A stretch of DNA of 64,000 nucleotides, taken from NCBI GenBank assembly GCA_946800325.1, contig OX326961.1, forward strand, positions 40,104,543 to 40,168,542, written 5' to 3'. This document shows, piece after piece, positions 6,600-64,000 of this stretch; position 1 is the first letter of the stretch; each line of letters opens with the position of its first letter. The notes below the pieces were generated by a model, which ran no database searches, was not told the DNA's origin, and saw nothing but the letters and a program-made list of their open reading frames with translations. This stretch comes from Luzula sylvatica (taxonomy: Eukaryota > Streptophyta > Magnoliopsida > Poales > Juncaceae). The position numbers and the translations under genes were made by a program.

Positions 6600-7080
6600 T
6601 TGATTGCCTCGTGCCACAATCGACAATGCATCACTCCAAGCACCTCGGCTCGACCTGTCGTGGTGTTCGTGGAGCGGCTGCCCCGCCTCACTCCTGAACC
6701 ACCTTGTGCTTCTACCAACAACGTGTCACTCGAAATACCTCGACTCGACAGCGCCTGCTCCCCCTCGCACCGCTATCCGTCCGCACCGAGTCTGGCTCGT
6801 GCCTGGACCACCTCACGTCACTATCAACGACGTGTCAACCTCGACTCGACAGTGCCTGCTCCGTCTTGCACCGCTATCAGTCCGCGCCGAGACTCCCTCG
6901 TGCCTGGACTGCCTCGCGCCACTATCCACGACGTGTCACTCGAAATACCCCGACCCGACAATGCCTGCTCCGTCTCGCACCGCCCTCGGTCCGTGCCAGG
7001 ACTGTCTCGCGTCTGTACCACTTTACCTACCATCCACGATGTGTTCCTCGAAACACTCAGCTCGGCCTTTTTCGTTGCAA
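6600..7080. repeat. GC-rich minisatellite, about 100-110 bp period
   Basis: The core CTCGACTCGACAGYGCCTGC recurs near 6740, 6839 and (diverged) 6949, each time followed by CTCGCACCGCTATC-like text and a GTGCCTGGAC-like stretch. Three + frames and one - frame stay open because repeat units share few stops. The block is strikingly GC-rich against AT-rich neighbours. Confidence 0.6.
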
Positions 7081-8500: not shown

Positions 8501-9483
8501 ATATCTTTTTTATGTATGATCGAACGGCTCTCAGTAAAACAATCGAACGGTAAAAAGTTAAAAAACGTGGAAGGATAAAAAATAGGCCCATTATTTTGCA
8601 TTATATCTATTTAATGATTTTGCATTATATCTATTTAATGATATTATTTTTTGTTTTATTAAACTTGTGTTGTATACGGTATACCTCAAATATTATCAAA
8701 TTTATTCACATGTTTTAACTTTTCAAAAAGGTTATTTTGTAATATTCAATAATATAATTTTATAATTTTCTGTAACTCCAGCTGTATATGCCCAACTTCC
8801 AAGTATTATCAAAATTATCTTTTAATTTCTACGAAAGCTTTTTCTTTGTAATCTGCAATAATATAGATGACTTCTTTTTTATTTGATTTCGGACATAATG
8901 TCTTTTTGTTGCCAATTTCTACTAACGTGCCATTGTTGGTTAATTCTAACCTAGAGGGTGGTGAATAGATAACCTAATGGGCAATTTTTGACTAGGTATA
9001 CAAATTCTAATTATAGTGCGGAATATAAATTTAAGTTAATAATGAAAAGAGGATACCGAACACGCGATGTTTATTACGGAGTTCGGTAGGTGGTTGCTTT
9101 GTAGCTTTAACTCACCCTTTACTCGCTTAATTGACCGATTCAATTAATTGCGAGTACCTACGTCTCCGGAAATGCCTTGTGCCTTTTCGGCGTTCGATTG
9201 AATTCCAACTCACTCGTACAAGGTTTTGCCTAGATCGAGTTACACGTTTCTCTCGATCTATGGCGGCTTTACACTCTTGGTACTAGCCTATTACAATATC
9301 TAAATACTAACTAAACGTGATCGGTCACGCAAGTTGGGAATAGTATTTGGAAGGGAAGAGGGAAATCTAATCTCTAATAATGAGTTAGAAGATTGTTTTA
9401 GCTCAATGATATAGCAATGTTTCTCTCTTTGGAAGTTTAGATTTGGATAGATGAAGTGATGAGAGAGAATGAGGGAAGGGTTC

Positions 9484-9491
9484 TATTTATA
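9484..9491 (-). promoter_or_regulatory. TATA box of the SIRE LTR
   Basis: TATAAATA on the minus strand lies 41 bp beyond the nearest palindrome and is followed by a pyrimidine-rich CTCATTCTCTCTC tract, as expected around a transcription start. Confidence 0.6.
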
Positions 9492-9530
9492 GAACACATA
9501 GTCCCTTCCCTCACTTGCTTATTCTGAATA

Positions 9531-10078
9531 GTCCGTTGCAACGGACATATGTTCCGTTGCAACGGAACTTTCAAAAACTAGCCGTTATGGCTGATGTACT
9601 TGAATTTATTGCACAGTCCGTTATAACGTAACTTAGTCCGTTACAACGGAATTCTGTGTTAACTAGTCCGTTGCCACGGACTTGAGTCCGTTCCAACGGA
9701 CATTCCACTGAGACAACACTTCAGCTTTGGGTTTTAATTCCCGTTGCAACGGAGTGTTTTCCGTTACAACGTGGAAAGGGGTTCCGTTACAACGGATTGG
9801 TTAATCCGTTGCAACGGACTCATGTGGGAGTTTATACTGAAGTGAAGCCTTGATGTCCGTTACAACGGACGTTAATGTCCGTTACAACGGACATTCTTCT
9901 GTGACAGGCTTCATCATTGGAAATAAAATAACGTTGCAACGGAGATAGAGTTCCGTTACAACGTACATGTCCGTTACAACGTATTGGTGATTACGTTGCA
10001 ACGGACTATACTGGTTTTCCCATGTTGAATAAATCGAGTAGTTCCGTTACAACGGACTGGAATTCCGTTGCAACGGAC
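9531..10078. promoter_or_regulatory. Array of 18 paired CCGTTRCAACGG palindromes in U3
   Basis: Twelve-base cores start at 9533, 9554, 9618, 9638, 9668, 9688, 9741, 9761, 9784, 9806, 9857, 9879, 9931, 9953, 9971, 9993, 10044 and 10065. Read as nine successive pairs, the start-to-start distance within a pair is 20, 21 or 22 bp every time, while pairs lie 40-85 bp apart. Cores vary at the middle (TTGCAA, TTACAA, TTATAA, TTGCCA, TTCCAA), and some have one end changed to ACG or CGT. Each intact core carries two inverted AACGG motifs. Position upstream of the TATA box suggests an enhancer; the function is inference. Confidence 0.8.
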
Positions 10079-10414
10079 ATACTGATTTCAGCCTTTTTAA
10101 TTGAATTCAAGTACTTTTTCATTGTGTTTAATCTTTTAAACAAGTTTAGAGATACCTATATATTGTATTGATGATTAGGTAGATATCCCAACTTGCGGAA
10201 TCTTCTATGTCTTGATCTTCTTCGCAATTCTTCAACGTCTTGATTTATGTGCGTCTTGATTTTATCCATGATTCTTCGACGTCTTTGATTCTTGTTATTC
10301 TTGATTGATCCTTTCATTTTGTACCTATCTCCTACACATTTATCTTGCTAGATTTCGTTAGTAGTATCGACATTGTATTTGAGATAATCAAACAATAGGA
10401 AATTTGAACCAACA

Positions 10415-10600
10415 AACTCCCCCTTTTGATTCATTTCAAAACAATGTCGATTTGGAGAGATACATCGATTATCGGTAACTGTCCAATACGATTATCCTTT
10501 CTCCCCCTTTTTGAAAGTGGATCAAAAGGGATTGAATTTGAAAAAAATCATGAAGGAAAGCTCCCCCTACAAGCAATCTCCCCCTAAACACGTGCATATC
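10415..10600 (-). other. Polypurine tracts of the SIRE element
   Basis: The tract complementary to CTCCCCCTTTT (10418-10428) abuts the LTR and would prime plus-strand synthesis. Three further CTCCCCCT blocks follow near 10501, 10561 and 10579. Multiple tracts of this kind are usual in SIRE elements. Confidence 0.6.
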
Positions 10601-10921: not shown

Positions 10922-11909
10922 CTAATCATCTCCGGTTGAGTCTTCGTCATCGGGATTGTTGTTGGATTGGAAACGACGGTTCATTGTCTCGAATTGGTTA
11001 TCGACATAGTCATATAGTTCGGCACGAAGTTGAACCGCATGGCTTCGGATGAGAGTGTTATCAACCAAGACCTCATCGCGGGCCGCAAGAACGGTATCGC
11101 GGGTCACGCGATTGTCGGCGAAAATCTCATCGCGGATCGTAAGAACGGTATCGCGGGTCATGCGATTGTCGGCGAAAATCTCATCGCGGACCGATTCGAC
11201 GTGTGTGTTTTGTTGGAGGGTTTGTGCCGCGAGAAGTGCTTGTATGTCCTCAAGAGTGAACGATGGTAGAGTTGACGAGCTTGAGCCATCGTTGAGAGCA
11301 CGTCGTTTGGACCCGCGAGAGGATTCCGGTAGATCGTTAGTCTCTTGCGCCGGAGGGTCAAAAGGGATCCATGCGGAGGAGATTTCCGGAAAGAAATAGG
11401 GACCGGCTCGGTTGTTACGAGAATAGTGATCCGAGAGTCCTCGGGTGGTCTTTCGAGTTAGTCCAAAAACTTCGAGGCGTTCGGGGAGCAAAAGATTTTC
11501 GGTTGGGACTTTCCCGAATGGCCAATCCGATTCCGGTATAGTAATCCCGGTTTTGAAACATGCGAGTGTAATAATGTGTCCATAAGGAAGGGAAGAGGTG
11601 CCGACTCGCAACGAGTATTCCATATGCTTGATTATCAAGTTTGGAATGTTGATGGATGGTGTGTCTTGGTACCAAAGATTGTAGATTAATACCTTGTTTC
11701 GGGTTTCGAGATTGGTTTTGAGTTTGACCACCGGGGTGAGAATGTTGTTCCTGATTTGCCACGTAACCCGGAGATTTGGTTCGTATTTGGTGGAGTAAAA
11801 ATACGTTCGATCATTGGTGGTGATGTTTTCTACTTCGTCCGAGTCGTTTCCGTGATACGAATCACCACGACTAATGTAGAACCTCTCACCGTTCGCGGAC
11901 AACCCAAGC
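10922..11909 (-). CDS. C-terminal part of SIRE env-like ORF
   Basis: About 328 residues remain on the minus strand; the open frame begins at 11926, but its first few residues come from the adjoining LTR, so the true N terminus is lost. SLPYGHIITLACFKTGITIP resembles the conserved LPYG-centred motif of the plant transposon protein domain found in the third ORF of SIRE/Maximus elements. The C terminus holds repeats of VRDEIFADNRMTRDTVL (three diverged copies), likely coiled coil, and an acidic end. No signal peptide or transmembrane helix is visible in what remains. The role of this ORF in the element is unproven. Some + strand open frames here are mere shadows. Confidence 0.65.
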
Positions 11910-12120
11910 CATTCATTAATTATCACTAATTACATAATTAGTTATTAACTGATCAGTTCAGAAAATAGAAAATAAAATAAGAGCCCAATTGTTACAAAGC
12001 CCAAAACTTCAGCCTGTTATGTAAATAGTCGACCGTTATAACCTCTTCCTAGCGTTCTCTCCAGTACACACATGACTGGAGAGAAAACTCATCTTCTCCA
12101 AACGTGCAATACTCTTAACA
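11910..12120 (-). repeat. Truncated 3' LTR of the Copia element
   Basis: It matches 17252-17462 with four substitutions and no gaps, ending in CTCTTAACA. The outer 194 bp seen in the other LTR, including TGTTAGAAGAG, are missing and replaced by SIRE env-like sequence. Confidence 0.9.
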
Positions 12121-14790
12121 ACCCCCCTCAAGCTCAGGAGGAGTAATGTCGACTTTGAGCTTGCGTCGTAAATAGTTAAAACGCGTCGTGGACAACCCTT
12201 TGGTGAGCGTATCTGCCAGCTGATCTGCCGAGCACACAAATCGAACAAGAAGCTGCTTTTGAGCGACTTTTTCTCGGACAAAATGGTAGTCGATTTCAAT
12301 GTGCTTGGTTCGCGCATGAAACACCGGATTTGAAGCAAGATAAGTAGCACCCAGATTATTACAATATAAGATGGGAGGTTGAAGAAGAGGGAGATCAAGT
12401 TCACTGAGAAGATATTGAAGCCACAAAGCTTCTGAAGTTGCCAAAGCTAGAGCTTTATACTCAGCCTTGGTACTTGATCTTGAGACAGTAGGTTGCTTTT
12501 TGGAAGACCATGAAATCAAATTTGATCCAAGAAAAACACAATAACCCGTAGTAGAACGCCGATCATCAGGGCATCCTGCCCAATCGGCATCTGAATAGAC
12601 ATGAATAGCATGATCTGGTGATGAATTAATGGTGAGGCCATGAGTAATCGAGCCTTGAAGATACCTAAGTATCCTTTTAACCAAACCCCAATGAGAATCG
12701 CGAGGATTATGCATGAATTGGCTCGCCTTATTTACTGCAAATGCAATATCTGGACTACTGAGTGTAGCATACTGTAATCCACCAACAATGGATCGATAGA
12801 GAGTTGGATCAGATAATAATGTACCACTGTATTTGGAGAGAGGTTCAGTTGAAGCAATTGGAGTAGATACTGAGTTTGCTTTAGTCATATTGGCTTTGGT
12901 AAGTAGAGCTTGAATGTACTGAGTTTGATTTAGGTGTAGGCCAGAAGCAAATCGTGTACACTGAATTCCTAAAAAATAGTGTAAGTTTCCTAGATCTTTA
13001 AGCTTGAACTGGTTGTGTAGCTGAATGGTAAGAGAGGAGATTGCATCAGCAGAAGTACCAGTGATGATAATACCATCCACATAAACTAACATATAGGTGA
13101 GATTGAGAGCAGTTTTTCTGATGAACAAGGATGGATCTGCAAGAGATGGAATAAAACCGAGATTGTGTAATGAAGTACTCAGTTTTTGAAACCAAGCACG
13201 AGGAGCTTGCTTTAATCCATACAATGCTTTCTTAAGTAGACATACATGAGAGGGAAACTGTTGATCAACAAAACCCTGAGGTTGCTCCATGAGAACCGTT
13301 TCTGAGAGATCGCCATTAAGAAATGCATTATCTATATCTAATTGCTTAAGAGGCCAGTGATTTGAGATAGCTAGAGAGAGCACCAATCGAATCGTGGTAG
13401 GTTTAATAACTGGACTAAACGTTTCTTCATAATCGATACCCAATTCTTGAGTAAAGCCACGAGCTACAAGCCTGGCTTTGAAACGTTCGAATGAACCATC
13501 AGCATTTCGTTTAATCTTGAAGATCCATTTGTTCTTGATTGGTTGTTTATCAGGAGGTTTAGGAATTAACACCCAAGTACCATTAGAGAGAAGTGCATTT
13601 ATCTCTGAGGCCATTGCTTTACGCCATGGTTCTTGTTTGATAGCTTGAGTAAAACACGTGGGTTCGGAGAAAGGTTGTAGCTGAGAAGAATATGCCACAA
13701 AATCAGGGTTAGATTTTGGTTTAAGAGACTGTGTCTTGCTTTGAGTAATCATAGGATGAGCTACTGTACTGGGTGAGGATGGAGAGGAAGATTGCTCAGG
13801 TGAAGAAGTTGGTTGAGGTGGAAGATCTGGTGACTGGGTGATGTTATCAGTTGTTGCGGAAGATCCACAGTAACTGGGTATAACTGATAGAGGAGGTATA
13901 GAGGATGATAAATCTGCGGAAGATCCACAGGTACCATCCTTGACTGGTGTGAGTAGAGGAAACGTAAGCTCATCAAAAACTACATTTCGTGAAATGTAGG
14001 TCTTGCCATTTGTGAGATTTAAGCACTTGTAACCTTTGAAAGATGGAGCATATCCAATGAAGATACATGGAGAAGATCTAAACTCAAGTTTATGCTGATT
14101 ATATGGTCTCAGGTAAGGAAAACAAAGACAACCAATTGTCTTAAAGTAGGAGTAATCAGGAGCTCGATTGTATAATAGTTCATAAGGGGAGAGTTGAGGA
14201 TGAGTGAGAGGAGGTATTCGATTAATTGAGAACACTGTGGATTGAAATATATCCGGCCAGTAGGAGCTTGGGAGATGTGACTGAGCTAGTACAGCTAAAC
14301 CATGCTCAGTAATATGGCGATGTTTTCGTTCAGCATGTCCATTCTGTTGAGGTGAGTAAGGACACGAGATTTGTAGTTCAATGTCAGGGAAGGCAGTTTT
14401 AAGAAAGAAGAATTCCGAGCCACCATCAATTTGTAAACGCTTGATCTTATGAGATAGAGAATTCTCTACCATGGATTTAAACTTAGGAAAGATATTAGTT
14501 AAATCTGATTTGTTTGTGAGGAAATAGATCCAAACAAACTTGGAGAAATCATCGATAAATATGACATAATAGCGAAAACCTTGATTAGAAACAACAGGAG
14601 CTGGACCCCAGAGATCACAATGAAGTAATTGTAATGGTTTGGTAGTAACATTAGAACTAATCATAAATGGAAGTCTTTTGGATTTGGCTACACAGCAATC
14701 TTTGCTAAGAGGAAATGATTTATTACATAAACTAATTTTATTTTGACGAGCTAAAACTGAATTGAAGGGTGACATAATCTCCTGTGCCAA
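12115..14790 (-). pseudogene. Copia pol: integrase, reverse transcriptase, RNase H (defective)
   Basis: The frame is 891 residues. Integrase comes first, with LLHCDLWGPAP, LQIDGGSEF and SPQQNGHAERKHRHI carrying the D, D and E positions. Then come the RT domain (WIFKIKRNADGS, ARLVARGFTQ, LDIDNAFLNGDL, ALYGLKQAPRAW) and RNase H (VYSDADWAGCPDDRRSTTGY), ending in the LADTLTKGLS motif of Copia polyproteins. The RT active site reads YVDG where the family has YVDD, and the RNase H block reads SSTKAEY where a catalytic Glu (SSTEAEY) is usual. Both changes should abolish catalysis. The frame is offset from gag-pro, which it overlaps at 14751-14790, although the family normally has one continuous polyprotein; this points to a small indel near there. 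Confidence 0.85.
12121..12141 (-). other. Polypurine tract of the Copia element
   Basis: ACCCCCCTCAAGCTC on the + strand gives a GAGGGGGGT purine run immediately before the 3' LTR. Confidence 0.7.
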
Positions 14791-16181
14791 GTGGTAGAAG
14801 ACACCTGAGCAGCTAAACCAGTAGGAGATGCAGCAGAAGAGAGAGAGTAGAGTCCATTAATTGGTTTGATTATGTGGAGGATTCGCTGAGAGCTTCGATC
14901 CTTAAGAAGACAAAGATTTGGTAAGAATTCCACAGAAATATTGTTATCGAGTGTTAATTGATTGATACTAAGTAGTTGTTTTGTAATTTGGGGAACATAA
15001 AGAACACGAGAGAGATTTAAATTAACAGTGGGAGAAGTAATAGAGGAATTGCCAACATGAGAAATCAACAAACCTTGTCCATTACCAACGATGAGTTGCT
15101 CAGCTCCAGTGTATGAAGAGGTATTGGTGAGATTATTAAAATTTGATGTCACATGATGTGAAGCACCAGAATCAAGATACCATTCATGAGGGGAATGGAA
15201 AGATGGTGGATAAGCAGGTGATGGTGATGGGTTGTAATAGGGTTGTGGAGATGGTGCAGCAAAGTAGGTTGAGGGACGAGGCATGTACTGAGTTTGTTGA
15301 GGAGAGGCAAATTTAGATGGTTTTAGGGATGGATCGCGAAGCCAGCAAGAATTGATATGGTGTCCCGGTTTGTGACAGTAGTTGCATGTTAATCCATTCT
15401 TGGTTGTGTTTTTCTTCCATGGTTTGTTCTTACTTGATTGATAAGGTATGGTGTAATTGGGTGGATTGGTGAAAAGAGGAGGTTTGGATGAAGTTGGTTG
15501 AGAAGATGAGAGAAGAGATGCAGCATGATTGACCGATGATTCATCATACATGATCGATTCATGGCTGAGAATGACACCTTGGATGGAAGAAAATGTATGC
15601 TTAGTATCTGAAGAGGTTATGGCCAGAACCGATTGTCGAAAATCAGATCCAAGACCTCGTAGTGTCGTCATAACCAGATCATGCTCAGGAACCGGACAAT
15701 CAATAAAAGATAATTGATCAGCCAGATTCTTGACTTTCAAGAAATAATCGGAGCAGGAGAGAGTACCCCGTTGAACATTTTGCAGCTTGGAACGCAAATC
15801 ATGAGAATGCGCAAGAGAAAAAGAAGAGAATGATTGAAGAAGAGATGACCATGCCTGAGCTGCTGTATTGCAGTGAAGTACTTGAGCAAGTGCTGATTCC
15901 GTGAGAGAGCTCATAAGCCATCCTAAGATCAGTTGATCCTGCTGTTGATATTCAAGATCGGCACCGGACGCATCGTCATTGATTTTATTGGGGTCATAGA
16001 TTTGAGGATTTTCAAGAAAGTTCATTAGATTATGCCCGCGGAGTACCGGCAAGATTTGAGATTTCCAGAGCAGAAAATTAGTTTTATCAAGCTTGATAGG
16101 TACCGGGTGTGTGAAATGAACCATCTTGAATGGAGATTTGGTGGTAGCGGAATCGGAGAGATCAGATTGAGTCGTCGCCAT
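14751..16181 (-). CDS. Copia gag-protease with gag-pre-integrase motif
   Basis: The 476-residue frame starts at the first Met. The N-terminal gag (PIKLDKTNFLLWKSQI, RGLGSDFRQSV) matches the UBN2/Retrotran_gag type. A zinc knuckle CNYCHKPGHHINSC (CX2CX4HX4C) follows a basic KPWKKNTTKN stretch and would bind RNA. A Pro/Ser linker leads to the aspartic protease motif WYLDSGASHHVT. The frame ends in the gag-pre-integrase motif WHRRLCHPSIQF, just where pol continues in another frame. The start codon lies against the target duplication of the nested MITE. Confidence 0.85.
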   Translation of the reverse strand: MATTQSDLSDSATTKSPFKMVHFTHPVPIKLDKTNFLLWKSQILPVLRGHNLMNFLENPQIYDPNKINDDASGADLEYQQQDQLILGWLMSSLTESALAQVLHCNTAAQAWSSLLQSFSSFSLAHSHDLRSKLQNVQRGTLSCSDYFLKVKNLADQLSFIDCPVPEHDLVMTTLRGLGSDFRQSVLAITSSDTKHTFSSIQGVILSHESIMYDESSVNHAASLLSSSQPTSSKPPLFTNPPNYTIPYQSSKNKPWKKNTTKNGLTCNYCHKPGHHINSCWLRDPSLKPSKFASPQQTQYMPRPSTYFAAPSPQPYYNPSPSPAYPPSFHSPHEWYLDSGASHHVTSNFNNLTNTSSYTGAEQLIVGNGQGLLISHVGNSSITSPTVNLNLSRVLYVPQITKQLLSINQLTLDNNISVEFLPNLCLLKDRSSQRILHIIKPINGLYSLSSAASPTGLAAQVSSTTWHRRLCHPSIQF

Positions 16182-17057: not shown

Positions 17058-17462
17058 TGTTAGAAGAGATTGAATAATAGAATACTGTAAAGAGAGAGAA
17101 TGTAATTAAGAGTTAATTAAAGAGTGAATACTGATTTCATTAAATCTAGAGAAAACTGATTACAATTTATACTTATAGACAACTAATCTATCCACTAATC
17201 CTTGATTTACTCCTGACCATACAATGTATAACTGACTAATCTTATCTACATCATTCATTAATTATCACTAATTACATAGTTAGTTATTAACTGATCAGTT
17301 CAGAAAATAGAAAATAAAATAAGATCCCAATTGTTACAAAGCCCAAAACTTCAGCCTGTTATGTAAATAGTCGACCGTTATAACCTCTTCTTAGCGTTCT
17401 CTCCAGTACACACATGACTGGAGAGAAAACTCATCTTCTCCAAACGCGCAATACTCTTAACA
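17058..17462 (-). repeat. Complete 5' LTR of the Copia element
   Basis: It is 405 bp, from TGTTAGAAGAG to CTCTTAACA. The ends form a TGTTA/TAACA inverted repeat, and it is bordered by the PBS on the inner side. Confidence 0.9.
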
Positions 17463-25326: not shown

Positions 25327-26682
25327 ATGGCATTTCCTCTATCATCGTGTCTTCTCCTCCTCCAATGTCTTCTCCTTTTCTTGCATCCCTTCACTCTACT
25401 CGGAGGAAGACCAAATCACGCCATTAATGTTCTTCGCAAATCCACCTCAAAACCCCAGATTCTACCTCTTAGAACCTCAAAGATCCCTTCTTGTTATCTT
25501 CCGAGACAACCCAACAAGCTTTTATTTCACCACAATGTTTCTCTCACCGTATCTCTGCAAGTGGGGTCCCCTCCTCAGAATGTAACTATGGTTCTCGACA
25601 CTGGAAGTGAGCTCTCATGGCTGGTATGCAATTCTTCCACTTACAACAATTCTTTCAAATCCTTTGCCTCTACCACTTACAATCGAATCCCCTGCAATTC
25701 CCCTGTTTGTCAAACCCAAGCAAGAGACCTCCCTATCCCCCCTGACTGTGATCAAACCACTCAATCGTGCCACGTGTCAATTTCTTACGCTGACATGTCA
25801 TCTTCTTCGGGCCTCCTCTCATCCGATCAATTCTACCTCGGCAACGCCGATACCGGTACTTCGAACTCAACTCCGGTTCTCTTCGGTTGCATGGATTCGA
25901 CGTACGATTCGACCGAAACCGTCACTACGGGATTATTGGGTATGAATCGTGGATCTTTATCTTTCGTGACCCAAACCGGTACCAAGCGATTCTCGTACTG
26001 CATTTCGGACAGGGACGATTCCGGCATTTTACTATTAGGAGGCGGTGCGAACATTTCCCTCCCTTTCACCGTTCCTTTGAATTACACGCCATTAGTACAA
26101 ATCTCGATGCCTTTACCGTACTTCGATCGCGTGGCTTACTCGGTACAATTACAAGGCATACGAGTCTCGAATTCGATTCTCAACATACCCAAGTATGTTC
26201 TGGTACCGGACCATACCGGTGCGGGTCAAACAATGGTGGATTCCGGTACCCAATTCACCTTTCTACTCGGCGAGGCTTACATTGCATTGAAAAACGAATT
26301 TCTACTACAAACCAGTAACATTCTTCCCGTATTAAACGAACCCGATTATGTGTTTCAAGGAGCTTTCGACACGTGTTTCAGATTACCTCGAGGTACGGTA
26401 CCGCCAGTAGGTTTACCTGAAGTGGGTCTTGTTCTACAAGACGCGGAAGTGGTGGTCACCGGCGAGAAGTTGTTGTACCGCGTACCGGGTGAATACCGGG
26501 GCGGAGATGCAGTATGGTGCTTGACATTTGGCAATTCGGACTTGGTACCGTTATCGGCTTATATAATAGGGCATCATCATCAACAAAATGTTTGGGTGGA
26601 GTATGATTTGGAAAATGGACGGCTTGGATTGGCTCCGGTACGGTGTGATCTTGCCACGCAGAGACTGGGCCAACTTTATTAA
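25327..26682 (+). CDS. PCS1: PCS1-like aspartic protease (pepsin family A1)
   Basis: This is an intronless 451-residue secreted or ER-targeted acid protease. An N-terminal hydrophobic signal (LLLLQCLLLFLHPFTLL, residues 10-25) precedes a short pro-region. Catalytic motifs are D91TGS and D305SGT, with flap Tyr154 in ISYADMSS. LFGCMDS, GLLGMNRGSLSF, FSYCIS, YFDRVAYSVQL, VPDHTGAGQTMVDSGTQFTF and IGHHHQQNVWVEYDL follow in the order seen in Arabidopsis PROMOTION OF CELL SURVIVAL 1, about the same length. In Arabidopsis PCS1 protects embryos and reproductive cells from death. Many Cys and several N-glycosylation sequons suit the secretory pathway. The start is the first Met after a CT-rich leader (CACATGG context). 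The closest alternative is its tapetal paralogue UNDEAD. No defect is visible. Confidence 0.93.
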   Translation: MAFPLSSCLLLLQCLLLFLHPFTLLGGRPNHAINVLRKSTSKPQILPLRTSKIPSCYLPRQPNKLLFHHNVSLTVSLQVGSPPQNVTMVLDTGSELSWLVCNSSTYNNSFKSFASTTYNRIPCNSPVCQTQARDLPIPPDCDQTTQSCHVSISYADMSSSSGLLSSDQFYLGNADTGTSNSTPVLFGCMDSTYDSTETVTTGLLGMNRGSLSFVTQTGTKRFSYCISDRDDSGILLLGGGANISLPFTVPLNYTPLVQISMPLPYFDRVAYSVQLQGIRVSNSILNIPKYVLVPDHTGAGQTMVDSGTQFTFLLGEAYIALKNEFLLQTSNILPVLNEPDYVFQGAFDTCFRLPRGTVPPVGLPEVGLVLQDAEVVVTGEKLLYRVPGEYRGGDAVWCLTFGNSDLVPLSAYIIGHHHQQNVWVEYDLENGRLGLAPVRCDLATQRLGQLY

Positions 26683-41553: not shown

Positions 41554-43475
41554 GACATTAATTAAAAAATCCCATGAAACACTGTCAAATGCCTTATGTA
41601 TATCTAATTTTAAAATAATTTTTTGATTTTCTCCAATACTTCAATTCAAACTGTATTAAACGGAAAAAATAATACAATATTTGTCATAATACGAGCATAC
41701 AATTATCTCACAATAATTTGTACTTTTATATGCACCGACAAATGCAAAAAATTATCGTGTTATGAAAAATGTACATAGTATGCGCTCATGTATATAGCGG
41801 GGTTTCTTGATTATCAAATGCACGAGGACAAATAAGTATGTTTGAACAACACCAAATCAATTATTCAACCGCCAAATTATCGTGAATATGTAAGCTAACA
41901 AAATTATATTAAAATTTCAAATTAAATATAAACTTAAATATTTGTGGTTTAGTGACGTGATTATATCATTACTTCCATCAAAATTTCTTATGATCATAAA
42001 ATATTATAAAAAATAATTTCCATTTTTATATGCACTAGCTCATGTAAAATATTATCACGGCAATGAAACGCATATATTGTGCGGGCTCATGCATATTTGT
42101 TGTTGTTATGAAATATTGAAATGCATATAGTTTGAAGCTCGTGCATGAAGTGTGCGCTTAGCAGGAGAGAGGTACATGCATCTGTATGAAGAATTGAACA
42201 TCGACGTCTTTTCTTCTTTTTTTAAGGAGAAGCAGTTATCTTGATGACATTGAAGGTCCAAGCCGACATGGGTGCGGAAGCACTTGCCTTAAGATTCGTG
42301 CACCGTCAGTGATGTTGAGCACTCAGACACTTCTTCTACCAGGCGATCACCATCTTCCTCCTCTGCGCTTCGATTCAGCTTTGATCGATTTGAGTAATGG
42401 ATGGAACGGCATCAACGGCTTTCATTTGACAGGTTCCTTTTTTTGGTTTAATTTTTGTAATTTTGGCTTTAATTTAGTAATTTTGTAATTACTAATTTAT
42501 GGAGTATTTCAGGTGTAATCGAACCTCTGAGATTGTTGTTTTCCATCAACGGATTATTTTTTTTGAAACCACAATGGGTAATAGAAAGAAGGAAAATTTT
42601 ACCTTGCCTTAGCCTGATAATTAACTAGTGATTCGTAATTACTAACATTTAAATATTAATTATTAATTATTAATTTGAGATTTTAATTTATATTATATTT
42701 CTAATTATCTATATAGGAAAATTGTTGAAATCAATAATTTAACAATTTAATTGAATGTATAAATTATAAAATGTTGGAAAATATAATAATTTGTTTGGTC
42801 GTATAGAAAATTTTAGAATTTCATTATTGAAAATATAAAAAGTAATATTTAATTAGAATTGATATAAAAAGTTAAATATCATTATTATATCACATATATA
42901 TATTTGTTGGATTACCAAAAAATAAAATATTTATTATAAAGATTTTTTTTGTTTTAAACAATAATATTTATTTTAATTTGTAGATGTTTTGGTTTTAATT
43001 TGTCGAACTTGATTTAATCAATCAATTTTTTGATTTGTCAAGACGTTACTCGTTTAGTTTCGGTATTAATTATAATATTTTACTCAATTATAAGCTATGT
43101 TTATAATATCGGTCCAAATAACGTATATATTATTTCATTTCGCTATTCGGTTCAAGATCGTCGCGATTTACCCCAAATCGGTTTGAATTTTAAATGTATT
43201 TTAAATTGGATATTGTCAACATTAAAATCATATTAGTCCACACCGATATATTCATTTCATATCGTTGTAGGAGTTATACGAATCATATCAGAGATATATA
43301 ATTTTTTTCTTTTCAAATATTAAAAATATATATTTTGTTAGGGTTGTGAAAATTGAAGGAAATACACTTTTAGATCAACGGTAAAACTGTACATGTAAGG
43401 ACAAATGAACGTACCCGTTTCGATGGAACCAATATGTGTGTAATAAAATTTCACAAATATCAGATCCAGTGGGAG

Positions 43476-43639
43476 TTCCGTTACAACGGACCTAGGGTGC
43501 GTTGTAACGGACCCATTGTATGGTTCGTAAACAAGAGTTCCATAAACACTTTCGTTGTAACGAAAGTAATGCTCCGTTACAACGGACCTATTATACGTGA
43601 GGGTCCGTTACAACGGACGTATGGTGCGTTATAACGGAA
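43476..43639. promoter_or_regulatory. Three paired CCGTTRCAACGG palindromes in the solo LTR
   Basis: Cores start at 43478, 43499, 43552, 43574, 43605 and 43626, so pair spacings are 21, 22 and 21 bp. Sequences include CCGTTACAACGG, GCGTTGTAACGG, TCGTTGTAACGA and GCGTTATAACGG. The array ends 94 bp before the TATA box. Confidence 0.8.
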
Positions 43640-43731
43640 CCTGTTCTGATTCTGGAATGTGTATAATCTGTTATACACGTTTTTGCATATTTGATATATT
43701 GCAACTATTAATATGTCATTATCCTATGAAG

Positions 43732-43739
43732 TATAAATA
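43732..43739 (+). promoter_or_regulatory. TATA box of the solo LTR
   Basis: TATAAATA is followed by GATGTTTCTCTCTCTTC, a likely start region, like the arrangement in the SIRE LTR. Confidence 0.6.
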
Positions 43740-44349
43740 AGATGTTTCTCTCTCTTCTAGGTGTTTCATTCAGTCAAAATCATTCAACAAGAATTGAAAG
43801 ATTGCAACCGAGGAGAGAGAGACAAGAGAACGTAATAAACGAATCAAGCAATTGCACATACACTTCGTCTAGGCAGTTGCGTGTGTGTTTGAGAAAATAG
43901 GACTCACGATAAATACGAGTAGATGAGTTCACATCTTATGACACTTCGTTTGTGATCAAATCGGAGAAGTCATCGAGGAGAAGATATGTTGGAGACGTGA
44001 ATAAGAGATACACAGAGAACAACCGAGAGCGTGTCAATAAGCTGGGAGACGTGTGGGCGTAGGACGCACGGCTAGTCACCAACGTGACAACAAAGAGAGA
44101 ACCAAAGAAGAAACGAACAACACTTCGTACGTGATCAATTTCATGTGGTACGGTTCTATCTTCTATTGCATCGTACCCTCGGAGAGACGGATTTATCCCG
44201 GAATTAGGGAACCGTCCCGTAACCCTCATTTCGCTGCGCTTGGTCCGGGGCCGCGATTCCCAACAAAAATACTTTGGTTCAAAGTGTTCATTTTATTCGG
44301 TGCGACGTGGTGCAGTTTTAGTATTTTGAAAATAGATTAACTCAACCTA

Positions 44350-44640: not shown

Positions 44641-45658
44641 AACCAAAATATTTGAAAATAAAATACATATATATCTCTAATATGATTCATATGATTTCTA
44701 TAACAATATGAAATGAATATATCAGTGTGGACTAGTATGATTCTTAAGTTGACAATTTCCAATTTAAAATACGTTTAAAATTCAAACTGATTTGAGGTAA
44801 ATTGCGACGATCACGAACCGAATAACGTTATGAAATAATTATACCAGTGATTTGGACCAGTATTACAAACAAAGTTTATTACTCCGTAAAATATTATAAT
44901 TAATACCGAAACGAAACGATTAACGTCGTGACAAATCAAAAAATTGATTGATTAAATCAAGTTCGACAAATTAAACCAAAACATCTACAAATTAACTATA
45001 TAAATTAAAATAAATATTATTGTTTAAAACAAAAAAATATTTATAATAAATATTTTATTTTTTATAATCCAACAAATATATTAATTTTGGGGTGTCATCT
45101 AGGCCATTAATTTGAAGGGCTGTATTTTTTCTCGATTTTTACGTGGGAATACATCATAATTTTCCTAAGCATAACAAAACATACATGGATTTAAAAAAAT
45201 AAAACAATCAACAATAACTTTATTTATATTCGTGTAACATCAAATTATAAGAAAAGAAAAAACTAAATAAAAAAACTAAAATAAAAAACATATATATAAT
45301 TCTGAGAAAAAATATAAACAGTGAATTTATACCTGATTTAATAAATAAATAAATAAAACTGTAAGTAAACTCTGACATGATCTCGAGTTTCCTGGAATGA
45401 CATCAATCCACAAGCCAATACACTGCCTAACCTATAATTTAGATTAGATCCCATTAATCATTTAGACTGCATGATGCAGCTTGGACGACCTGTTTTTCCA
45501 GTTCTATTAGTAAACAAATCATATTTAAGAAAATAGGTATTGTAATTTTTAATTGCATCATCTTTAAATTAAATTAAAGAAATAGCTAAAACTTAAAAAA
45601 GAACAAACAAAACAAAATCTACAAGTTTGATAAAAAAATGAAAAAATTTCAGATGATA

Positions 45659-45931: not shown

Positions 45932-46826
45932 TCAAATTCTCCAATTGGAGTCCCAGTAATTTATTACATCATAATTAATATGTAAATTAAAAAATCAAAT
46001 ATATAATAAATAACGTAATCAATTGGAAAATCCATTAATTGTCAATTTGTCAGACCCGTCAATTGTACAATTTGTTGGACATGTTAAAAACTTAGAGAGA
46101 TTATATTAATTTCAAAATTTCATAACTTCCATTAACGGTTAATCATGTTAATTTATTAAAACAACACCTTATAATTGTCAATTAATGAAAATTTAGAAAA
46201 TTACAGAACAACCCTGAAAAAATAAAAATAAAACTACATAACAGTCGCCGAAAATTAAAATAAAGCAAAACAATTCCTACAATTTAAAACATTGCAAAAA
46301 AGTCCATGGGAGTAATTTATTCTCCTAATACATTTCAAGGCTCGTATAAAATAAAAATGAATAATTTATCATTATGTTTTTGTAGTTACGATTATTTATG
46401 TTTCAATTTCACCTTCCGTGACGTATGTTTTAGCTTATACAACATGTGTATGAGTATTGATTTGTATTTGAATTATTTTACTTTATAGGTTGTTGAATTA
46501 CATATTAAATTATTCTCAATTATCGCAATGTTATTTCGTTTGAGTTCATATCACAATATTTTTTCAAATACATTATTAAAAAATAAAATCTGTCATTACC
46601 TATGGTTTTTGCATTAAAATTATAAATCCTGAAGGTATCAAATAGTCTGAAAATATCAAATACGCCCCCTCAAATTATCATATATACAAATGTGAAGTTA
46701 TCTTGTATATCCACATAAAATCTTGAATCGGGTTTCGTTGTCTTGCTTATGGTGTCATGCACTTTGGTTTCTCGGTTTGTTCGTCTTATTTCTCAGTCAT
46801 GTCTTGATACGTCTTTCTCCTATGAC

Positions 46827-47502
46827 TAGAGGTGCCAATCGGACGAGTCGGGTCATTTCGGTTTACGAACGTTCGGATTACCGCTCATTCTTGTTCGGAT
46901 CGTTTTGATTTTTGGTTCATTCGCTTCAGGATCGTTACGGTTTCCGGATCATTCGGTCCGGGACGTTTCGATTTTTGGGTCATTCGATTCCGGTCGTTTC
47001 GGTTTTCGGGCCATTCGGTTCTTGATTAGTTCAATTTTTGGGTCATCCAGATTTCGCAAAATTTGATTTCGAATCATTCAATTTTTCGAACATTTAGTTT
47101 TCCGGTAATTCGGAATTTATTTTATTAATTCCGAAATATTTTAACAATAATATATTGTTTTTAGCAATAATATATTAATGTTCGAGTCATTTTGGTCATT
47201 AGTTTTGGTTCATGATATTTGAGTCATTCGGATCTAGAGTTTTAGGTATTTGGGTTTCCAGTTATTTCGGGTCGTTCAGGTTTCGGATCATTCGATTACG
47301 GATCGATTTCTCATTCGGGTCATTCGGTTTCGGGTCGGTTTCCGATTCGGATCATTCGGTTTCGGTTCTATTTCTAGTCCGGATCATTCGATTTTTGTTT
47401 CGGGACGTTTTACTTTTCAACACTTTTCGTTCCGATCGGCTTCGAATTAGGACGGGTCGGGTCAGGCCATTTTACGAGTCAGGTCACATCTTGCCAGTTC
47501 TA
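46827..47502. mobile_element. hAT MITE in the left arm
   Basis: It begins TAGAGGTGCCAATCGGACG and ends CTTGCCAGTTCTA, flanked by CCTATGAC and CCTACGAT (six of eight match). The interior is made of degenerate GGTCATTCGGTTTCGGGTCG units of about 33 bp, which explains the open frames 46723-47529. Confidence 0.65.
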
Positions 47503-47639
47503 CCTACGATACCTCGTGGCTCAACATAACAATCCCCCGTCCCTTTGGAAATAAATGAATTTAATGTTAATTTTAGTAACATCTTTTTGACGAGAGCAAG
47601 TAAAATAAATACGGAAAATTAGCAATTGAATTCGACAAA

Positions 47640-48240
47640 AAAAACTCTCTAAAATCTTAAAGTATCAAAAATATCTTTGCACAATTTTGAAAATTTCAAA
47701 AATACCCTTAAATGACCTGGAAAAATCAATGTACCCCCTCTAGAAACAAGAAAATTATAGAATGCCTTTATAAGATCTGGAAATATTAAATATGTCCCTC
47801 CAAAATACCAATATGTAAAAAATGACACTCCAAAATCATAAAATATCAAAAATACCCTTATAAAATCTGAATATATCAGATATTCCCTATCAAACAATTT
47901 CGAAAATACTCTTACAAAACTGAAGACATTAAATATAATTCTCTACAAATGTTAAATATATAAAAATTAATCTTCTAAAATCCGATAATATAAAAAATAC
48001 TTCTCGAAAATCTAAAAAAACTTCAAAGAAATCCTTATAGACCCTAGAAATATCAAATATAACATCTTTCTAAAATCTGAAAATTTACAAAAATGCCTCT
48101 ATAAGTCCTGAAACTATCAAATACCCCCCTTCGAAATTTGATTATATAGAAATACCCATCTAATTAGGATTTTTTTTTCTCTTTCTGATTTATAGGAGTA
48201 TATTGGATATTTCCAAGTTTTGTAAGGGTTTTTTGGAAAT
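47640..48240. repeat. Degenerate minisatellite in the left arm
   Basis: Units of roughly 35-40 bp of the type AAATATCAAAAATACCCTTA then TAAAATCTG repeat with heavy divergence. The mirror block is 50430-51050. Confidence 0.6.
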
Positions 48241-48640
48241 GTTCAGATTTTGATGTGAGTGCATATTAATAAATGGCACCAAATTTTTTTACTATAGAAC
48301 AAAATTTGCATGTGTCTAAAAAAATTAAAACAAAATTTTTCATTTTCCATGTCATATGGATAGTGCATCAAACATAAACTGTCATATTGTAATCGTACAC
48401 TTTAGAGTGCATATTCCATGTCATGTTTTAATCGTACAATTTAGATTGAAAAATAAAGATGACATGGATTAAAAAAATAACGTCAACTTTTATTGTAAAA
48501 TACGACACACAAATAATTACATAAAATGTGACCATCAATTAAGGTACAAAAAATCATTGGATAATACCAACACTCGTCACAATATCCAATAGTTCAAATT
48601 GAAATATAAAAAGTATCACACAAAATATATGCATTAAAAA

Positions 48641-49861
<1,221 letters not shown>

Positions 49862-50196
49862 TTTTATTGCATATATTTTGTGTGATATTTTTTGATATTT
49901 CAATTTGAACTATTGGATATTGTGATGAGTGTTGGTATTTTTTTTGAAAATGATGAGTGTTGGTATTATCCAATGATTTTTTGTACATCAATTGATGATC
50001 ACATTCTATGTAATTATTTGTGTGTCGTATTTTACAATAAATGTTGGCGTTATCTTTTTAATCCATGTCATCATTATTTTTCGATCTAAATTGTATGATT
50101 AGAATATGACATGGAATATGCACTCTAAAGTGTACGATTACAATATGACAGTTTATGTTTGATGCACTAACCATATGACATGGAATACGAAATTTT

Positions 50197-50324
50197 GATT
50201 TTGACTAGAGTGTATGAGGGCCCTATCTATCTCTCTTCTTTTTATATTTTCTAATTCTTGTAATTGGAGTTTTTATTAATTAATGCAAACTAGAGAGGCA
50301 TTGCTTCTCCTTCAAAAAAAAAAA
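50197..50324 (+). mobile_element. 5'-truncated LINE tail in the right arm only
   Basis: The insert ends in poly(A) (50314-50324) and is flanked by a perfect 26-bp duplication starting CCATATGACATGGAATACGA (50171-50196, 50325-50350). The left arm has no such insert at the mirrored place (about 48345), so it arrived after the arms formed. Confidence 0.85.
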
Positions 50325-50429
50325 CCATATGACATGGAATACGAAATTTTTTGTTTTAATTCTTTTTGACACACACAATTTTGTTCTATAATAAAAAAAA
50401 ATTGTGCCATTTATAATATGCACTCTCTT

Positions 50430-51050
50430 CAAAATCTGAACATTTCCAAAAAAACCCTAACAAAATTTGGAAATATCCAATATACTCCTATAAAATCATA
50501 AAGGGAAAAAAAACCATAATTATATGGGTATTTCTGTATTTTCAAATTTCGAAGGGGGATATTTGATAGTTTCAAGACTTATAGAGGCATTTTTTTAATT
50601 TTCAGATTTTAGAAAGATGTTATATTTGGTATTTCTAGGTTCTATAAGGATATCTTTGAAGTTTTTTAGATTTTCGAGAAGTATTTTTGATATTATCGGA
50701 TTTCAGAATATTATTTTTTATATATTTAAGATTTGTAGAGAATTATATTTAATATTTTCAGTTTTGCAAGAGTATTTTCGAAATTTTTTGATAGGGAATA
50801 TCTGATATATTCAGATTTTATAATGGTATTTTTGATATTTTATGATTTTAGAGTGTCATTTTTTACATATTGGTATTTTGGAGGAGCATATTTAATATTT
50901 CCAGATCTTATAAAGGTATTATATAATTTTCTTGTTTCTAGAGGGGGTACATTGATTTTTCCAGGTTATTTAAGGGTATTTTTGAAATTTTCAAAATTTT
51001 GCAAAGATATTTTTGATATTATTTGATTTTAGAGAGTTCTTTTTGTCAAA
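50430..51050. repeat. Degenerate minisatellite in the right arm
   Basis: Mirror image of 47640-48240 (TAAAGGTATTATATAATTTT and similar). Its Phe/Ile-rich ORFs are artefacts. Confidence 0.6.
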
Positions 51051-51194
51051 TTCAACAAACTTTAGGTATCAAATTGCTAATTTTCCATTTGTTTTACTTG
51101 CTCGCGTCAAAAAGATGTTACTAAAATTAACATTAAATTCATTTATTTCCAAAGGGACGAGGGATTGTTATGTTGAGCCACGAGGTATCGTAGG

Positions 51195-51860
51195 TAGAAC
51201 TTGCAAGATGTGACCTGACTAGAAAAATGACCTGACCCGGCCCGTCCTAATTCAAAATCGATCGGAAACGAAGAGTGTTGAAAAGTCAACGTCCCGAAAC
51301 AAAAACCAAATTATCCGAACTCGAACTATAACCGAAACCGAATGATCCGAATCGGAAACCGATCCGAAACCGAATGAAAAATCGACCCGAAATCGAATGA
51401 CCCGAAACCTGAACGACCCGAAATAACTGGAAACACAAATACCTAAAACTCAAGATCCAAATGACCCAAATATCACGAACCAAAACTAACGACCAAAATG
51501 ACTCGAAAATTAATATATTCTTGCTAACAACAATATATTATCGTTAAAATATTTCGGAATTAATAAAATAAATCCCGAATGACCGGAAAACTAAATGTTC
51601 GGAAAATTGAATGATTCGAAATCAAATTTTGCGAAATCCGGTGACCTGAAAATTGAACTAATCTAGAGCCGAATGGCCCGAAAACCGAGACGACCCGGAA
51701 TCGAATGACCCGAAAATCGAAACGTCCCGGACCGAAAGATCCGGAAACCGTAACGACCCTAAGCGAACGAGCCAAAAATCAAAACGATCCGAACAAGAAT
51801 GAGCAGTAATCCGAACGTTCGCAAACCGAAATGACCCGACTCGTCCGATTGGCACCTCTA
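51195..51860. mobile_element. hAT MITE in the right arm
   Basis: Inverted copy of 46827-47502, from TAGAACTTGCAAGATGTG to ATTGGCACCTCTA. The minus-strand frames 51286-51997 arise from its CCGAATGACCCGAAA repeats. Confidence 0.65.
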
Positions 51861-52727
51861 GTCATAGGACAAAGACGTATCAAGACATGACTGAGAAATA
51901 AGACGAACAAACCGAGAAACCAAAGTGCATGACACCATAAGCAAGACAACGAAACCCGATTCAAGATTTTATGTCGATATACAAGATAACTTCGCATTTG
52001 TATATATGATAATTTGAGCGGGCGTATTTGATATTTTCAGACTACTTGATACACTTTCAGGATTTATAATTTTAATGCAAAAATCATAGGTAATTTAAGA
52101 TTTTATTTTTTAATAATGTATTTCAAAAAAATATTGTGATATGAACTCAAACGAAATAACATTTTCGATAATTGAGAAGAATTTATTATGTAATTCAACG
52201 ACCTATAAAGTAAAATAGTTCAAATACAAATCAATACTCATACACATGTTGTATAAGCTAAAACATACGTCACGGAAGGTGAAATTGAAACATGATCGTA
52301 ACTACAAAAACATAATGATATATTATTCATTATTATTTTATACCAGCCTTGAAATGTATTAGGAGAATAAATTACTCCCATGGAGTTTTTTGCAGTATTT
52401 TAAATTGTAGGAATTGTTTTGCTTTATTTTAATTTTCAGTGACCGTTATGTAGTTTTTTTATGTTTTCAGGGTTGTTATGTAATTTTCTAAATTTTCATT
52501 AATTGCCAATTATAAGGTGTTGTTTTAATTAATTAACATGGTTAACCGTTAATTGAAGTTATGAAATTTTGAAATTAATATAATCTCTCTAAGTTTTTAA
52601 CAGGTCCAACAAATTGTACAGTTGACGGGTCTGACAAATTGACAATTAATGGATTTTTCAATTGATTACGTTATTTATTATATACTTGATTTTTTAATTT
52701 ACATATTAATTATGATGTAATAAATTA

Positions 52728-63699: not shown

Positions 63700-64000
63700 A
63701 AATGTTAAATGTTAGAGGGGGAGCCGCCAGGAAACCCTAACTATATTGAGGCGATTTTGGGGTGGAGGCTTCCCTAGCCGCCTCCACCCCCTCTCTCCAT
63801 ACCGAGCGACGGTCAGGCAACGACGGAGCGACGAGACAACGAGAAGCTCCCCCCCATTCTGTAATTTCGAGCATTACAGAGGAATTTCGAGCCGATTGCA
63901 TAGCTGGCGTTTTGTCGTCGAATATTTTCATTATCACCGACGGAGCGACGAGGCTTACGAACGGCCAGGTACCGAGCTAAAGACGTAGCAACGGTCTAGC
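63700..64000. other. GC-rich block at the window edge
   Basis: An abrupt shift to GC-rich sequence with GACGGAGCGACGAG repeated at 63822 and 63939. Two + frames are open (63746-63988, 63762-63980) and one minus frame (63737-63937). It could be a leader or exon of a gene beyond the window; nothing was recognised. Confidence 0.3.

Follow-up and report, generated by a model that had tools for sequence, protein, structure and literature searches.

The window, a stretch of 64,000 nucleotides from the genome of Luzula sylvatica (contig OX326961.1), contains a retrotransposon of the copia type on its minus strand. The 3′ LTR of the element, called LTR 1, was delimited by its terminal hexamers and by the adjoining polypurine tract (PPT). 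LTR 1 and the adjacent element comprise the following features:

8934–10414, minus strand: LTR 1, the 3′ LTR, TGTTGG...CCAACA, 1481 bp, with terminal hexamers at 8934 and 10409
9484–9491, minus strand: TATAAATA box of LTR 1
9533–10076, no strand: palindrome array, 18 copies arranged as nine pairs, identified by motif matching
10366–10392: right arm of an inverted repeat, 22 bp inside LTR 1
10417–10424, minus strand: terminal polypurine tract AGGGGGAG, separated from LTR 1 by 2 bp (TT)
10425–10451: left arm of this inverted repeat, directly next to the PPT
10501–10585, minus strand: three further PPT octamers (10501, 10561, 10578)
10922–11926, minus strand: open reading frame of 334 amino acids in the position of an envelope-like gene, with a match to Transposase_32 under the Pfam cut-off
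12115–14790, minus strand: pol part, with copia reverse transcriptase (RVT_2) and retroviral SH3 domain
14751–16181, minus strand: gag part, with copia gag (Retrotran_gag_2) and Pol_BBD

The earlier note had described LTR 1 as belonging to a SIRE element. The structural marks and domain matches support the assignment of the element to the Sirevirus-type copia retrotransposons: it has copia gag and reverse transcriptase, four PPT octamers, an inverted repeat, and a palindrome cluster in U3 followed by a TATA-type box. SIRE elements have been reported for Luzula (PMC11538461). The copia-type gag and pol of Sireviruses are represented by RVT_2, Retrotran_gag_2, and Pol_BBD, and the integrase core in the pol part scores 30.9 bits, just under the Pfam cut-off of 32.6. 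In Sirevirus elements the PPT octamer begins 10 bp before the 3′ LTR and the linker copies average four (PMC2829016); here four copies of AGGGGGAG are positioned within about 170 bp of LTR 1, and the octamer occurs elsewhere in the window at 6758, on the strand of the element, and at 63716, on the opposite strand. The Sirevirus inverted repeat borders the PPT and its right arm is set 28 bp into the LTR on average (PMC2829016), an arrangement that is repeated here at 22 bp. In contrast, the attachment site is AT/TG in 20 of the 21 published Sirevirus elements (PMC2829016), whereas here it is TT/TG, one base off. Further Sirevirus marks are a C-rich integrase signal near the 3′ end of the LTR and the 9-bp primer binding site TATCAGAGC after the 5′ LTR (PMC2829016). 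Near the 3′ end of LTR 1 is the sequence CACCACCCTCTAGG, C-rich as judged by eye. The 9-mer TATCAGAGC is absent from the 64-kb window, in which a 5′ copy of LTR 1 was also not found by blastn.

The 334-residue open reading frame, located between pol and the PPTs, contains an internal 54-bp repeat, and no relatives of it were detected at an E-value of 1e-3. A 211-bp direct repeat with 98% identity links the end of pol (11910–12120) to a segment beyond the gag reading frame (17252–17462). It may, at a guess, be what remains of a related insertion, or of a rearrangement that deleted the 5′ LTR. Elsewhere in the window, the best match of a protease gene (25327–26682) is from Juncus effusus, with 81% identity, and a large inverted repeat (45957–52727) has arms of about 2.6–2.8 kb that are 86–97% complementary in several blocks and flank about 1.4 kb.

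The unit of the LTR 1 array is a 12-base palindrome of the type CCGTTRCAACGG, present in 18 copies as read on the plus strand, ten of which are exact, seven have one mismatch, and one has two. At up to two mismatches, the 64-kb window contains 52 matches to CCGTTRCAACGG, counted on both strands, as against 2.64 expected from shuffled sequences. Exact copies of the core CGTTNNAACG number 23 in the 64-kb window, with 17 in LTR 1, six in a second LTR (43478–43637), and none outside the two LTRs; the one palindrome of LTR 1 that lacks it, at 9668, has a single change. The array has a G+C content of 44% and lies upstream of the minus-strand TATAAATA box at a distance of 41 bp, which confirms the earlier description of 18 12-mers upstream of a TATA-type box. 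The pair starts are:

Pairs 1–3: 9533/9554, 9618/9638, 9668/9688
Pairs 4–6: 9741/9761, 9784/9806, 9857/9879
Pairs 7–9: 9931/9953, 9971/9993, 10044/10065

The start distances within the nine pairs are 21, 20, 20, 20, 22, 22, 22, 22, and 21 bp, exactly as the earlier note gave them. When 18 12-mers were thrown at random into 544 bp and consecutive pairs were scored, an average of 0.92 out of nine pairs were spaced at 20–22 bp, and the maximum in 20,000 trials was six. The pairing of the palindromes is real. From pair to pair, the distances are 85, 50, 73, 43, 73, 74, 40, and 73 bp. The gaps of 40–85 bp proposed earlier are therefore correct as start-to-start distances; however, they are not arbitrary-looking but close to whole helical turns.

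The second LTR, LTR 2, extends the observation beyond LTR 1. Its features are:

43336–44265, plus strand: LTR 2, apparent solo LTR, TGTTAGGG...CCCAACA, 930 bp, recognized from its sequence, blastn, and its ends
43478–43637: three palindrome pairs, six copies in all (43478/43499, 43552/43574, 43605/43626), identified by motif matching
43732–43739, plus strand: TATAAATA box of LTR 2, 94 bp past the last palindrome

The within-pair distances in LTR 2 are 21, 22, and 21 bp, so that the spacing rule of 20–22 bp recurs in all three of its pairs, the layout being known from one copy of each LTR. Outside the motif, no similarity between LTR 1 and LTR 2 was detected by blastn with 7-base words at an E-value of 0.01. 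Within LTR 2, pairs 1 and 3 resemble each other, with 89% identity over 38 bp. LTR 2 is flanked by the two arms of an inverted-repeat element (42988–43321 and 44647–44981), and no internal region was seen. Its flanks, TATTT and AAAAT, do not form a recognizable target-site duplication, and the window contains no uninterrupted copy of the joined flanks. A C-rich stretch such as that of LTR 1 is not evident by eye at the end of LTR 2.

Clusters of palindromes in front of a TATA box are a published trait of Sireviruses, and the array is therefore of a kind already known (PMC2829016). According to the accessible text of that study, repeated motifs are present in 13 of 21 Sirevirus elements as palindromes, with 8–32 copies per element and 3–14 per 3′ LTR; the clusters start 200–400 bp after the junction of the PPT and the LTR, extend over 300–500 bp, and lie shortly before the TATA box (PMC2829016). 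The array of LTR 1 likewise consists of many CpG-bearing palindromes clustered in the LTR just before the TATA-type box, its 18 copies exceeding the minimum of eight, and it starts 338 bp past the junction and spans 544 bp. In contrast to the published 3–14 copies, all 18 are in one LTR. The published motifs have the signature CGG-CCG, which is missing in only one of 13, that of Tnd-1 (PMC2829016), whereas the core of the motif studied here, CCG-N6-CGG, has the reverse order. Since the signature is missing, the array is a variant of the Sirevirus repeated motifs rather than a strict member. Extra motif copies precede the envelope gene in elements that have one (PMC2829016), but none are found near the 334-residue reading frame, whose envelope identity is putative. 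The accessible text of PMC2829016 does not mention strict pairs of 20–22 bp or a common phase. The palindromes of the maize elements Opie, Ji, and Giepum form a similarly palindrome-rich cis region with strong predicted structure, but their motif is different (accessible parts of PMC5311732 and PMC10760457).

In the text accessible to it, a literature search found no mention of how Sirevirus motifs are spaced as pairs or phased, and a search with the literal motif found nothing related by title. Thus, motif clusters are known in the family, whereas the strict pairing and the common phase may be new. Scans of the genome and viral contig collections did not provide further members of the family. 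In the genome contigs, the paired pattern matched four loci, all from Treponema metagenome-assembled genomes; the two that were inspected are 21-bp tandem repeats and were judged unrelated. These repeats (L001:4833–5185 and L003:1697–1937) include CCGTTACAACGG, and their unit would correspond to seven codons if in frame. The viral contigs contained no match to the paired pattern, 41 loci with the 16-mer, and three with the maize motif. Two copies of CGTTNNAACG at a distance of 19–23 bp were found in none of the 44 viral loci, two of which (L009 and L030) carry six and seven scattered copies. Relatives of the reverse transcriptase domain were not found in the viral contigs.

Most of the LTR 1 array is a diverged tandem duplication of about 189 bp. 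The segments 9666–9897 and 9855–10083 were aligned by blastn with 73% identity over 238 columns, and because of this alignment pairs 3, 6, and 9, pairs 4 and 7, and pairs 5 and 8 are duplicates of each other. The units defined by the alignment are:

9668–9856: unit 1, with pairs 3, 4, and 5
9857–10043: unit 2, with pairs 6, 7, and 8
10044–10083: start of a third unit, with pair 9

The spacing of the pairs in LTR 1 is therefore partly inherited. The spacers had been thought unrelated in sequence, which is contradicted by the 73% identity of the duplicated segments and by the spacers of pairs 5 and 8, which have eight of ten bases in common. Between duplicated units, 89 of 96 palindrome positions are identical (93%), compared to 79 of 118 other positions (67%; Fisher p 3.7e-6). 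This comparison was anchored on the palindromes of pairs 3/6, 4/7, 5/8, and 6/9, contained 15 gap columns, and excluded the stretch after pair 9. As expected, the palindromes have thus decayed less than the sequence around them. The lengths of the spacers vary among duplicates (8, 10, and 9; 8 and 10; 10 and 10 bp) but always remain within 8–10 bp. Pairs 7 and 8 (9931–10004) mirror each other, with variant 12-mers in the order X, Y, Y, X, which suggests template switching or conversion.

The palindromes share a common helical phase. When periods of 6–40 bp were scanned, the 18 sites of LTR 1 had the best coherence at 10.45 bp, with R of 0.80, and no palindrome deviates from the common phase by more than 0.19 turn at 10.45 bp per turn. 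The six palindromes of LTR 2 all agree in phase to 0.07 turn at 10.55 bp. A point against the phased reading is that the best period is 10.45 bp for LTR 1 and 10.6 bp for LTR 2; R of LTR 1 falls to 0.26 at 10.6 bp, and R of LTR 2 is 0.90 at 10.45 bp. With pair midpoints as the sites and the gaps between them permuted and jittered, the coherence had a p of 0.0054 for LTR 1 and 0.0002 for both LTRs (1 of 5000 trials). A model with uniform gaps that takes the duplication of LTR 1 into account, and to which the likeness of LTR 2 pairs 1 and 3 is external, gave p of 0.018 for LTR 1 and 0.0042 with LTR 2 added. With pairs 1–6 and LTR 2 only, p was 0.013, or 0.0017–0.007 at fixed periods of 10.4–10.55 bp. 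The evidence for the common phase is moderate because the test was post hoc, designed after the distances were known, and there are about seven independent pairs. The earlier note had placed two dimeric factors on one face of the helix; the support for this goes further than the proposal, to all 18 sites and to LTR 2. The phase of the TATA-type box is 0.54 and 0.68 turn in the two LTRs at 10.45 bp; however, the two values diverge by up to 0.33 turn at other periods, and the TATA phase was therefore not used.

Each 12-mer consists of two inverted half-sites, and the 24 palindromes of the two LTRs contain 48 of them. AAC is present in 47 of the 48 half-sites, with a preceding pyrimidine in 47 and a following G in all 48. 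YAACG is found in 46 half-sites, YAACGD in 44, and YAACGG in 36. R2R3-MYB proteins recognize (C/T)AACNG, and the rule for WER is AACNDN (PMC7145699). The half-sites thus fit a MYB-type site, as was suggested earlier, nearly all of them conforming; what differs from ordinary R2R3-MYB sites is their arrangement as back-to-back inverted dyads in phased pairs, and the N, which is always G. AtMYB57 prefers inverted-repeat dimers, but with a different half-site, and the arrangement of these arrays is not described in the accessible text on R2R3 homodimers (PMC11995187). The palindrome centres are purine-pyrimidine in 23 of 24 cases and pyrimidine-purine in none; ten are strictly self-complementary (GC or AT), and the others comprise 13 with AC or GT and a single CC. 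Of the changes at the inner base, 17 of 18 are C to T, as against eight transversions among ten changes at the outer base (Fisher p 0.0001, calculated on copies that are not independent).

The MSA element, the site of MYB3R proteins, has the consensus YCYAACGGYYA and shares the AACGG core with the half-sites, whereas the consensus of type-I MYB sites is YAACKGHH. At up to one mismatch, the MSA consensus matches one of 48 half-sites and YAACKGHH matches 47. The mitosis-specific reading of the earlier note, in which MYB3R proteins bind the array, was therefore dismissed beyond the AACGG core, since the flanks do not fit.

Every half-site contains a CpG that holds the C of the AAC (48 of 48), and 36 of the 39 CpGs in the region 9500–10090 are inside palindromes. 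Methylation of the cytosine within AAC lowered the binding of WER (PMC7145699). Because of this effect and the CpG in every half-site, methylation by the host would be expected to weaken binding, and it could switch the sites off. The array is probably methylation-sensitive.

The best reading of these sequence data, in which we have an even degree of confidence, is that the array is a phased set of sites for MYB-type factors in the U3 of a Sirevirus-type LTR. The array would be a cis-regulatory region of U3, a variant of the palindromic repeated-motif clusters of Sireviruses. Each 12-mer, composed of two back-to-back inverted pyrimidine-AACGG half-sites, would be suited to two R2R3-type MYB domains, and a module would consist of two of these dyads at a distance of about two helical turns, with the modules holding one phase. 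Since the sites share one helical phase, factors bound to them would face the same direction and could cooperate, acting jointly on the TATA complex, which lies 41 bp downstream, presumably in activation rather than repression. The array grew by duplication of segments with several pairs, with the half-sites and the phase retained, and host CpG methylation would weaken factor binding at the half-sites.

The main rival, possible with roughly one chance in several, is that the pair is instead a hairpin with a 12-bp stem and a loop of 8–10 nucleotides, formed in the RNA or single-stranded DNA of the element, and that conservation acts on the constant length of the loop. Two palindromes 20–22 bp apart make a near-perfect hairpin, which could alone explain the pair spacing. 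The hairpin might help to stabilize or package the RNA, or it might be a by-product that supplies the small-RNA silencing of the host, as proposed for maize Sirevirus palindromes, to whose clusters small RNAs map (PMC5311732, PMC10760457). The sense RNA of 9500–10100 folds at −273 kcal/mol, compared to −149 kcal/mol for shuffled sequences (z −22, 20 shuffles), but good folding is expected of any array of palindromes. The complementarity within pairs, 127 of 144 positions, is higher than the approximately 121.6–121.8 obtained with shuffled partners (p 0.004–0.005), which a model with proteins only does not predict, and with G-U pairs included it is 136 of 144 (p about 0.01). This covariation has a p of 0.010 for LTR 1 alone, 0.013–0.020 when unit 2 replaces unit 1, 0.004 when pairs 7 and 8 are both included, and 0.03 with pair 7 alone. 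However, it depends on pairs 7 and 8, which have matched outer changes (A with T): p is 0.23 for pairs 1–5 with two of LTR 2, 0.33 for pairs 1–5 alone, and 0.40 for LTR 2 alone. Template switching could likewise create the matched changes. Furthermore, a hairpin does not predict the phase between pairs, and its stem would permit the pyrimidine-purine centres that are absent from all 24 palindromes. The hairpin and the phased array can hold together.

Instead of a MYB, the sites may also bind a different dimeric factor of the host, or a factor encoded by the element or involved in silencing, which we consider rather improbable. The G after AAC is stricter than (C/T)AACNG demands, and no common binding factor was found for the Sirevirus repeated motifs, nor a site of a single factor common to them, in the accessible text of Bousios et al. 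(PMC2829016). Nevertheless, the half-site rule agrees with R2R3-MYB sites position by position.

It is unlikely that there is no functional spacing rule, so that an ancestral pair was amplified by duplication, spacing and phase were inherited, and the matched changes arose via template switching or gene conversion in reverse transcription. The 189-bp duplication, the adjoining of equal spacings (20, 20, 20 and then 22, 22, 22, 22), and the mirror-image order of pairs 7 and 8 are consistent with this explanation, as are the 14 of 66 spacer comparisons with p < 0.05, four of which are between known duplicates, in a count inflated by the shared end bases A...T. However, the palindromes were retained while a third of the other positions diverged, the spacers of duplicates differ in length yet are confined to 8–10 bp, and the phase persists in pairs 1–6 together with LTR 2, which is otherwise dissimilar to LTR 1. 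A decayed 21-bp satellite was ruled out, since R of LTR 1 is 0.35 at 21 bp as against 0.80 at 10.45 bp; TRF reported no tandem array.

A phased array of MYB-type sites would have consequences that can be distinguished. Changes of the spacers by a full turn and by a half turn would differ in effect if the bound proteins work from a single side of the helix; their effects would be the same if nothing but hairpins or copy number matters. The authors of PMC2829016 called for promoter tests, and the fixed spacing and the phase supply a sharp one. The half-site rule points to a candidate class of factors, and its CpG suggests a way in which silencing could operate directly at the site of the activator. 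If LTR 2 is not a Sirevirus, the motif would extend beyond that group, contrary to the 2010 statement (PMC2829016). More speculatively, and with considerable doubt, the arrays may represent a promoter code phased over the whole LTR, in which MYB-type dyads face one way over about 50 turns in two otherwise dissimilar LTRs, the CpG of each half-site makes binding and methylation mutually exclusive, and phase rather than copy number is what is selected in Sirevirus clusters.
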